Assembly (NCBI GenBank): GCA_028277945.1
Contig: JANQFH010000068.1
Span: forward strand, 1-64,000
Reading direction: 5' to 3'
DNA: 64,000 bases
From: Oligoflexia bacterium
GTDB taxonomy: Bacteria > Bdellovibrionota_G > JANQFH01
This document shows, one piece after another, positions 10,950 to 16,406 of this stretch. Each line of letters starts with the position of its first letter. The first letter of the stretch is position 1. The notes below the pieces were generated by a model that was given only the letters and a program-made list of their open reading frames with translations, made no database searches and was not told the origin of the DNA. The position numbers were made by a program, and so were the translations under genes.

Positions 10950-11054
10950 TTGTTTGTACACTACAAAAATGCTATAATTAGAAATAAGTAGTGTACTTGA
11001 CATCAATCTGTTTATACACTACTATATTTGTATATGTCTAATAAAGTAGTGTAT
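10950..11054 (+). promoter_or_regulatory. Promoter region with duplicated inverted-repeat operator
   Basis: Two copies of the inverted repeat TACACTAC-N23-GTAGTGTA occur in tandem: arms at 10957-10964 and 10988-10995, then 11015-11022 and 11046-11053. Both spacers are exactly 23 bases, and the copies are 58 bases apart. The region also carries TTGACA (10997-11002), 17 bases, TACTAT (11020-11025), whose -10 overlaps the third arm, and a second possible promoter TTGTTT (10950-10955), 17 bases, TATAAT (10973-10978). The last arm lies inside the first codons of the downstream gene. The arrangement is typical of an autoregulated operon; which protein binds is not known. Confidence 0.8.
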
Positions 11055-11402
11055 AAAAAATTGCCGTTGTTGGCCCATCTGATTCAAGAGGAAGAAAAGC
11101 GCAATGCCTTGTTAGCGGTGAGGTATCGTAAGGCATTGAAATCACTTCCTAAGGGTAAGCTCTATGTTAGAAAATTTGCTAAAGCGAAAAAGGGTGTGCG
11201 GCGTTATGTTTACTTGAGTAGACGTATCCCAGGCCAAGAGCACCCTGAGTCCAAATACATTGGTCGAGTGGGATCAGGGCAAGTTAAAGAGGTAGAAAAG
11301 CAACTAGACGATCGTCAAAGGTTGGAGAATCAGTTGGCTGCATTGGCGATCGAAAAACGCATGATAAAAAAGGCCCTAAATGAATATCGACGATCACGTT
11401 GA
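11034..11402 (+). CDS. Small basic protein upstream of a nucleotidyltransferase (possible antitoxin/partner)
   Basis: This 122-residue protein is very rich in Lys and Arg, with a middle segment RRYVYLSRRIPGQEHPESKYIG followed by a helical, coiled-coil-like C-terminus (about 85-122). The central pattern recalls the DUF6788-type small proteins, but I cannot confirm this. The ATG at 11034 is chosen over an upstream TTG; no Shine-Dalgarno sequence precedes it, and the TTGACA/TACTAT promoter would start RNA at about this ATG, so the message may be leaderless. It overlaps the nucleotidyltransferase by 23 bases. The operator structure suggests the first protein of an addiction-type or defence operon. 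Confidence 0.65.
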   Translation: MSNKVVYKKLPLLAHLIQEEEKRNALLAVRYRKALKSLPKGKLYVRKFAKAKKGVRRYVYLSRRIPGQEHPESKYIGRVGSGQVKEVEKQLDDRQRLENQLAALAIEKRMIKKALNEYRRSR

Positions 11403-12078
11403 ATCCTGTCTTGGCTTTTTTAAAGATGAGGTGGGGATTCTTGATGAAGTTCTTTTTATCGGGGCGTGGGCGCGTTATTTCTATCGCTCTCTGTTCAAAG
11501 GCAATGCGGACTACCAAGCCCGATTGGCGACCAAGGATCTAGATGTATTACTGGATCGAAAGAAAGCACGTCACAAAAAAATTGTCGATGTCCATCAAAA
11601 GCTTATCGAAGTAGGTTATCAGCCAACATATTACCAATCTAAGCTAATCAAATATCACCAAGACGATTTGGAGCTCGAGTTTTTGGTGCCAGCAGTCGGT
11701 AGTTCCCGGCACCAAGCTGTCAAAGTTCAGGCCTATAATTTGATAGCTCAAGAGCTACCTTACCTGCAAATGCTGTGGGATCACCCAGCTGCTGTAAAAT
11801 ATGGTCGTTACGAGGTGAACGTGCCAGAGCCCGTGACTTTTGCGTTGCATAAACTCATTATATCTGTTCGTAGGCAAAAACCAGCATCGGCAGAGCAGGA
11901 CAAACGTGATGCCGAAGAGGTACTATATGCACTCAGGAATGATTCGTCGTTTGAGGAACGGGTACAGACTGCTGTTGCCAGATTAAAAAGAAAGGCTTTG
12001 CAAGGAGTGCGTGATGGAATTGAAACATTCGTCTTGCCGGAGTTCAGAGACGAGATGAAGCGAATTATTTACTCATAG
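11380..12078 (+). CDS. GSU2403-like nucleotidyltransferase-fold protein
   Basis: This 232-residue protein resembles the minimal nucleotidyltransferases of the GSU2403 / NTP_transf_8 type. It shows FIGAWARYFYR (about 26-36) in the place of the usual GG/GS helix, then TKDLDVLL with Asp53 and Asp55 as likely metal ligands, and LELEFLVP (about 100-107) as the likely third acidic strand. A helical C-terminal half follows (VTFALHKLIIS, AEEVLYALR). Related folds are toxins or AMP-transferring antitoxins in MNT-HEPN and AbiE systems. The short overlap with the upstream basic protein and the shared operator argue for a two-component module. The Gly-Ala in place of Gly-Gly/Ser is unusual. Function is inferred from fold only. 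Confidence 0.65.
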   Translation: MNIDDHVESCLGFFKDEVGILDEVLFIGAWARYFYRSLFKGNADYQARLATKDLDVLLDRKKARHKKIVDVHQKLIEVGYQPTYYQSKLIKYHQDDLELEFLVPAVGSSRHQAVKVQAYNLIAQELPYLQMLWDHPAAVKYGRYEVNVPEPVTFALHKLIISVRRQKPASAEQDKRDAEEVLYALRNDSSFEERVQTAVARLKRKALQGVRDGIETFVLPEFRDEMKRIIYS

Positions 12079-15841: not shown

Positions 15842-16177
15842 TTAGGCTGCGCAAAGTTTATGAACTATCTTAGCAACGTTATCTAGAGTGGGATTTCCCT
15901 CTTCAGAAAGCATCCTAAAGAGAGTTCGGCGTGATATACCGGTATCTCGGACGAAATCTTCTTTATTGGCGAGTTCTAGGTGGGTTTTGAGGATGTCCTT
16001 AAAACCTTCGACGTCGTCAGCAACAAGACATTCCCACAGAGCCTTGGAAACGTAGTTTTTATCTTTAATCCGTTTAGAAGCACTAACGGTTGTTACTCTA
16101 GATCCTTTCTTGAGTTTAAGATTCTGCATATCTTTTAAGGAGAAGTTTTGCTTTTTTGATGTCTTTCTTCTGGGCAT
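15842..16177 (-). CDS. HigA-like addiction-module antidote (HTH) protein
   Basis: This 111-residue protein resembles the HTH antidote family that pairs with phage Gp49/HigB-type toxins. It shows VSKALWECLVADDVEGFKDIL (about 45-62) followed by the helix-turn-helix DTGISRRTLFRMLSEEGNPTLDNVAKIVHKL (about 78-108). The start at 16177 is supported by AGGAGG 8 bases upstream (complement of 16186-16191) although it lies 62 bases inside the toxin gene. It is the second gene of the pair, toxin first, as in HigBA. It should neutralise the toxin and bind the palindrome upstream of the operon. Confidence 0.88.
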   Translation of the reverse strand: MPRRKTSKKQNFSLKDMQNLKLKKGSRVTTVSASKRIKDKNYVSKALWECLVADDVEGFKDILKTHLELANKEDFVRDTGISRRTLFRMLSEEGNPTLDNVAKIVHKLCAA

Positions 16178-16406
16178 TTTTCAATCCTCCTAAAAGAAGC
16201 AAGATTGTATGTTCACCGACTCTGGTGAAATAGATTCTTCGACCAATCTTCCAGCGCAACTCTGCAAGGTTATTATCAATCAGCTTACAGTCGCCAAAGT
16301 GGTCGAAGTCTTCTATCCGAGCAATTCTCGAATCAATTTGTGCTCTGTCCTTTAGGTTACACTTCAGATACCACTGCTTGAACTCAGTCGTCTGAAGAAC
16401 AGTCAC
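16116..16406 (-). CDS. HigB/RelE-family toxin
   Basis: This 96-residue protein matches the Gp49-like/HigB branch of RelE toxins, which cut mRNA on the ribosome: TEFKQWYLKCNLKDRAQIDSRI at the N-terminus, GDCKLIDNNLAELRWKIGRRIYFTR in the middle, and LLLLGGLKNAQKKDIKKAK near the end, where family members have LLCGGdKssQ.kDIkkA. It starts with GTG, has no ribosome binding site, and lies just after a promoter-like sequence, so translation may be leaderless. It overlaps the antidote gene by 62 bases. Confidence 0.88.
   Translation of the reverse strand: MTVLQTTEFKQWYLKCNLKDRAQIDSRIARIEDFDHFGDCKLIDNNLAELRWKIGRRIYFTRVGEHTILLLLGGLKNAQKKDIKKAKLLLKRYAES

Follow-up and report, generated by a model that had tools for sequence, protein, structure and literature searches.

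A duplicated interrupted inverted repeat as the probable autoregulatory operator of a toxin-antitoxin-like nucleotidyltransferase operon

The window, that is, the whole 64-kb stretch of DNA analysed here, contains a two-gene module whose promoter carries two copies of a 39-base inverted repeat, considered below as putative operators (Table 1). The reading frames of the two genes overlap by 23 nt. It is uncertain where gene 1 starts, as the ATG at 11034 has two alternatives, a TTG at 11028 and a GTG at 11049, the latter being located inside the last arm of the proximal repeat and better aligned with the starts at the homologous loci L002 and L010.

Table 1. Position and basis of the features of the two-gene module and its upstream region in the window.
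Feature	Position	Strand	Basis
Promoter-like pair 1, TTGTTT (10950-10955)-17-TATAAT (10973-10978), inside copy 1	10950..10978	+	Read from the sequence; consensus resemblance only
Putative operator copy 1 (distal), TACACTAC-N23-GTAGTGTA, arms 10957-10964/10988-10995	10957..10995	.	Exact match
Promoter-like pair 2, TTGACA (10997-11002)-17-TACTAT (11020-11025)	10997..11025	+	Scan
Putative operator copy 2 (proximal), TACACTAC-N23-GTAGTGTA, arms 11015-11022/11046-11053	11015..11053	.	Exact match
Gene 1, small basic protein, predicted operator-binding autorepressor/antitoxin, 122 aa from the ATG	11034..11402	+	Homologues and AlphaFold2
Gene 2, NTP_transf_8 nucleotidyltransferase, 232 aa, predicted MenT/AbiEii-like toxin	11380..12078	+	PF12281, E 3e-19

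The original prediction, made from this sequence, described the same 8-base arms occurring twice, in copies 58 bases apart and with an identical 23-base spacer. The exact arms were recovered in both copies, and the spacer indeed measures 23 nt in each; its letters, however, are not identical, the two copies forming a 45-nt direct repeat with 73% identity, 58 bp apart. The GTAGTGTA arm is found four times in the 64-kb window, always within these copies, and allowing up to three mismatches the window holds only these two operators (100 shuffles: mean 0.12, largest 2). Across the whole 2.86-Mb genome, the pattern TACACTAC-N20-25-GTAGTGTA is found three times, corresponding to the two window copies and one (N22) located before the only gene-1 paralogue, compared with 0 occurrences of the reversed pattern used as a control in the same assembly.

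Two further elements of the prediction, namely that the second copy lies on the -10 box of a TTGACA promoter and that its last arm reaches into the coding start, agree with our scan: the proximal copy overlaps the TACTAT of promoter-like pair 2, whose -35 sits between both copies, and the arm falls within the start region of gene 1, with the alternative GTG inside it. In homologous loci, a TTGACA is commonly found directly 5' of the proximal copy, with the -10 inside it. A second promoter-like pair, located in the distal copy, was absent from the earlier description.

Profile searches did not relate gene 1 to any Pfam, NCBIfam, PADLOC or PHROG family, its relatives displaying scattered weak PADLOC matches in single members only, and the PF13338, DUF6088 and COG5340 matches that characterise AbiEi-type antitoxins were not retrieved for it. 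AlphaFold2 predicts an alpha-beta3-alpha fold (mean pLDDT 91.4; helices 12-36 and 82-121, strands 42-48, 56-63 and 72-78), for which Foldseek retrieved no match with E below 0.001 from the PDB or from viral models, and a DNA-binding domain of known type was recognised neither by sequence nor by fold. Sequence searches of the PDB with the profiles of gene 1 or gene 2, tblastn searches of plasmids with the window gene 1 and gene 2 and of both plasmids and phages with L025 as a typical gene 1, and searches of viral contigs all gave no match. Gene 1 appears to be a member of a new family of regulators, with an apparently new half-site rule.

Gene 2 matches PF12281 alone above cut-off, and not the PF08843 family (AbiEii/DUF1814) that defines AbiEii. 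It presents the features of MenT-like proteins, as a nucleotidyltransferase fold is accompanied by conserved G-x-W (G28, W30), DxD (D53, D55) and third carboxylate (E100) residues; across 17 homologues, T51, D53 and F101 are invariant, and D55 and E100 nearly so. The closest structure to its AlphaFold2 model (pLDDT 91.4) is a fungal nucleotidyltransferase-like protein (5uvd, E 4.7e-5); Foldseek also retrieved MenT1 of MenAT1 (8an5 and 8an4, E 2.4e-4 to 6.1e-4, prob 1.00), followed by ANT(2'')-Ia and Rv1045/MenT3.

Gene 2 is located directly 3' of gene 1, usually overlapping it, in most homologous loci, 18 of the 22 PF12281 places are directly behind a gene-1 homologue, and the two proteins are fused in L077 and L082, the former being a typical gene 1 plus gene 2 behind a typical operator. 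An overlapping pair with the small partner first, kept as a pair and patchily distributed (24/385 genomes), presents the general features of toxin-antitoxin systems. L026, L028 and L034 have an intact gene 1 next to a gene 2 that is split, truncated or present as a remnant; this fits a toxin located beside its antitoxin, a pattern that MAG errors can imitate.

Gene 1 was found in 24 of the 385 genomes of a domain-wide sample, with more homologues recovered through a wider profile; one short match (L036), whose frame is unlike gene 1 and which has neither gene 2 nor operator, was left out, and a search of genome contigs yielded two loci only, on the same contigs as those of G003 and G004. In 26 of the 31 gene-1 upstream regions, from unrelated bacterial genomes, a strict operator immediately precedes the start codon, compared with an average of 0.21 and a maximum of 2 such loci in shuffles and with 4 operator occurrences in the remaining 92,489 bases of these loci. 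Thirteen loci carry two copies, spaced by 57-60 bp in nine of them and by 42, 49, 55 and 69 bp in the others. The arms take the form T[AG]CNNNAC, usually TTACNNNACA, with letters that differ between genomes, and the AT-rich spacer also varies, with a fixed tip-to-tip spacing of 38-40 bp. In the nearest homologous locus containing both genes (L010, from a MAG titled Deltaproteobacteria bacterium HKST-UBA01), the order is TACTCTAC-N23-GTAGTGTA, TTGACA, TGCACTAC-N22-GTAGTGTA and ATG, with the copies 58 bp apart, and L011 presents the same architecture with TACCAAAC arms. Under the strict definition applied to the 31 regions, the operator is absent at the gene-1 relatives L029, L075, L032 and L074; in L029 and L075 the next gene encodes a different nucleotidyltransferase (with a weak DUF2204 match in L029). 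Four loci fetched after the motif had been defined (L039, L073, L077 and L078) all contain it. In six further genomes, the exact TTACCYAACA operator was found solely upstream of gene 1, so that in seven whole genomes, including the host, exact operators are found at gene-1 loci only. The search for the motif upstream of homologous pairs that had been proposed as a check shows that its position, spacing and often its duplication are kept with diverged letters, and since the arms are conserved in this way, their reading as an operator survives.

Several observations concern other parts of these genomes. The gene-1 paralogue of the host (L009 6031-8188, G000:C68) is a solitary gene, convergent with a neighbouring AbiEii/DUF6088 type IV pair, which is without an operator of the gene-1 kind, and an open frame located about 2 kb upstream of it (L009 3416-3790) resembles the C-terminal part of gene 2 (LFHKLIVADRRAKPETAEQNRRDAEEVLYALQD), probably as the relic of a second module. 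In the window, 4 kb away from the module on the minus strand (15842-16406), there is a second toxin-antitoxin-like pair, composed of a 96-aa protein resembling by eye HigB/RelE-type toxins and an HTH protein of 111 aa that weakly matches, below cut-off, the HI1420 antidote family (PF21716, E 2.3e-4). Finally, L002 displays two perfect 19-20-bp hairpins (1158-1200 and 1279-1319) ending in CGGAGGAGGAGGGAT, a sequence that recurs only once more in that genome, at a distance of 8 kb on the same contig.

Which of the two proteins would recognise the repeats can be approached from their covariation. Loci without gene 2 (L002) or with only a remnant of it (L034) still have the operator; in the loci compared, it is gene 1, and not gene 2, that the operator follows. 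The divergence of the half-site letters correlates with that of gene 1 (Mantel rho 0.34, 2/5000 permutations). With V or A as residue 62, half-site position 6 is A, and with other residues it is mostly T or G (table 11/0/1/15); an aromatic residue 73 is accompanied by C at position 4, where A predominates otherwise (table 15/3/0/9), although these columns were selected after a scan and shared ancestry leaves two to three independent pairs, none of them opposite, which are too few for significance. For example, the window gene 1 has S62 and S73 with a TACACTAC operator, whereas that of L022 has V62 and Y73 with a TACCTAAC operator. In four held-out loci, position 6 was predicted correctly in three and position 4 in two. 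Both residues belong to predicted strands (56-63 and 72-78), close to where the connecting loop begins and ends, and should therefore be neighbours facing each other on the beta-hairpin, as judged from the strand limits and not from coordinates. As the arm letters track residues 62 and 73, gene 1 is likely the protein that binds the operator. The original idea that the two-gene module is preceded by the operator of a specific multi-site repressor is thereby supported at the sequence level, by the conservation of the repeats and by letters that follow the protein.

The beta region of gene 1 is also detected in other contexts. Weaker matches restricted to it correspond to DUF6922 proteins (PF21956, E 2.5e-18), in which it is N-terminal and which are followed by an AbiEii-type nucleotidyltransferase (L042: PF08843, E 4.6e-15). 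In four of six DUF6922 loci, a palindrome precedes the ATG, with half-sites TACCACAC, TATCACAC or TACACAAC/TACACTAC and 19 bp tip to tip (shuffle mean 0.08), and it is also present in a DUF6922 locus fetched afterwards (L103). These half-sites abut, with centres about 11 bp apart (one turn), instead of the 30-31 bp (about three turns) of gene 1. In two genomes (L066 and L068), a gene-1-like domain shares one protein with a Fic-like domain (PF02661, E 1.8e-4, below cut-off), and TTAGGGAAC arms are located upstream in the same spacing as for gene 1; the Fic-like motif of these proteins, TQVFTDGNKRA, is without the usual histidine. Moreover, three loci encoding NTP_transf_8 proteins of about 330 aa (L080-L082) all have shorter palindromes near the start, 27-35 bp tip to tip (shuffles 0.0-0.05). 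The searches recognise a gene-1-like domain at the N-terminus in L082 (E 2.2e-7) and, in a different reading frame of the locus, in L081, whereas in L080 it is suggested by eye only. Two palindromes with TTACAGACAG/ATACAGACAG arms can be seen by eye in the roughly 60 bases 5' of the L080 start codon, the last arm touching the ATG. On balance, we lean towards the idea that the gene-1 beta-domain is an undescribed DNA-reading domain of antitoxins, recognising TTAC-NNN-ACA half-sites whose middle bases would be set by the two facing hairpin residues, and that it is used before several effectors unrelated to one another (NTP_transf_8, AbiEii via DUF6922 and a Fic-like domain), the rest of the protein setting the distance between half-sites (about 11 bp in DUF6922, 30-31 bp in gene 1).

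Our preferred explanation, which we regard as likely, is that the inverted repeats serve a toxin-antitoxin-like operon as operators for its own regulation, with gene 1 as an antitoxin-like autorepressor in control of a MenT/AbiEii-like nucleotidyltransferase. Its sequence-supported part comprises the conservation of the operator, its restriction to gene-1 loci and its covariation with gene 1, as well as the pairing and fusion of the two genes and the folds predicted for them; binding, repression, dimer geometry, toxicity and neutralisation are what we infer. According to this model, the beta-sheet of gene 1 would read an 8-10-base half-site, TTAC-NNN-ACA (TACACTAC in the window), and its helices would join two subunits into an elongated dimer, holding on the same face of the DNA two half-sites separated by 30-31 bp, or about three helical turns. 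Binding to the proximal copy would cover the -10 and the start region, while the distal copy would act as a second, probably cooperative site that would also cover the upstream promoter, and the two copies together could provide a graded or cooperative switch. Gene 1 would in this manner repress itself and the overlapping gene 2 and presumably also neutralise the nucleotidyltransferase, so that a fall in gene 1 protein would relieve both repression and neutralisation.

Other explanations have to be weighed against this one. Gene 2 adjoins nearly every operator, and fusions unite parts of both proteins, as would be expected if gene 2, or only the complex of both proteins, bound the operator, comparable to the conditional cooperativity of type II systems, without gene 1 alone being the specificity determinant. 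This seems quite improbable to us, because the operator remains without an intact gene 2, because similar half-sites accompany gene-1-like domains whose partner is Fic or DUF6922/AbiEii and not NTP_transf_8, and because the half-site letters follow residues of the gene-1 strands. It is also conceivable, although unlikely, that the operon is autoregulated but is not the toxin-antitoxin pair proposed here, gene 2 being a regulatory or RNA-modifying nucleotidyltransferase, or even the antidote of a harmful gene 1, as MntA is in HEPN/MNT; nucleotidyltransferase antitoxins do exist in the HEPN/MNT systems (PMC7641770). However, gene-1-like domains recur beside AbiEii and Fic-like domains, as expected of antitoxins, and gene 1 persists without gene 2 in L002 and intact beside the damaged gene 2 of three loci (L026, L028 and L034).

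The repeats could in principle act through other molecules than the proteins of the module. In the window and in L002, the start codon region is under the last arm, as in an RNA hairpin of the leader working as an attenuator or in translation control, but in most loci the left arm is between the -35 and the -10 of the proximal promoter and, being located 5' of the expected transcription start, should not be transcribed, for which reason we reject such a hairpin as extremely improbable. In addition, the distal copy holds its own TATAAT, the spacing is fixed at 38-40 bp even though the AT-rich spacer varies, and it differs with the architecture of the protein. Equally outside the module, a general host regulator could target the arms, or these could be the ends of a mobile element, and the patchy spread of the module (24/385 genomes) is what would be expected of mobile DNA. 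Against this very improbable origin, exact operators are found nowhere else in the seven genomes and the arm letters vary by genome. The mobile-element version is rejected, because exact operators are at gene-1 loci only and the arms are within the promoter and start codon and not at the ends of an element.

Under the autorepression reading, what was an orphan gene pair becomes a regulatory system open to testing, for which regulator, operator and partner are all predicted, and PF12281 enzymes are linked to MenT/AbiEii toxins. If the beta-domain does read DNA in the manner suggested, it would be a compact DNA-binding module common to antitoxins of several kinds of toxin, combining a simple rule for the half-sites with a spacing dictated by protein architecture; such systems could be found through their operators alone, and would offer small repressors with swappable specificity. 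The literature searched contains no mention of PF12281, NTP_transf_8 or DUF6788, nor of DUF6922.

Among known systems, the AbiEi repressor acts through a pair of 23-bp inverted repeats that cover the promoter and lie 3 bp apart, and Rv2827c negatively autoregulates through four inverted repeats straddling its own promoter (PMC7319586). Therefore, this kind of system is already known, and the view that the operator is more elaborate than those of most toxin-antitoxin operons holds only partly, multi-site operators having been described for both. As in AbiEi/AbiEii, the window presents a regulator gene first, a nucleotidyltransferase gene second and paired inverted repeats, here a predicted operator, over promoter-like pairs. 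In contrast to AbiEi/AbiEii, gene 1 is without PF13338/DUF6088, gene 2 belongs to PF12281 and not to PF08843, and the repeats are interrupted palindromes of 38-40 bp with 8-10-bp arms in copies about 58 bp apart, instead of 23-bp repeats separated by 3 bp. The Rv2827c-Rv2826c (MenA4-MenT4) system of M. tuberculosis also shares with the window a complex, multi-repeat operator overlapping the promoter, with two inverted-repeat pairs, and autoregulation by the antitoxin (described in PMC7319586 and proposed here), but Rv2827c is a two-domain COG5340 antitoxin of about 290 aa compared with the 122-aa alpha-beta3-alpha gene 1, and the geometry of the repeats differs.

MenA1-MenT1 (Rv0078B-Rv0078A) resembles the module through its small upstream antitoxin gene and through MenT1, the best toxin-antitoxin structural match for gene 2. 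MenA1, however, has 68 aa, is helical and carries no DNA-binding domain; MenA antitoxins comprise three independent families, and MenAT1 is without autoregulation, unlike what is proposed for gene 1 (PMC11375011; PMC10435456). The fact that the closest toxin-antitoxin fold match of gene 2 does not autoregulate (PMC11375011) is an argument against our preferred explanation, as are the failure to recognise a DNA-binding domain in gene 1, the four gene-1 relatives without the operator and the small number of independent pairs behind the association of residues and half-sites. The DUF6922-AbiEii pairs share with gene 1 the beta-domain and a similar half-site palindrome directly before the ATG, whereas their half-sites abut (19 bp vs 38-40), the long flanking helices are lacking and the partner is AbiEii. 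The beta-domain of one DUF6922-type protein weakly matches the N-terminal domain of the SSV1 integrase (PF07935, SSV1_ORF_D-335, E 0.0059), a lead only, as this match is below the curated cut-off and is not seen for gene 1. Finally, because gene 1 lacks the sequence features of AbiEi and gene 2 those of AbiEii, the module is filed as working like AbiE and MenAT rather than as a member of either.
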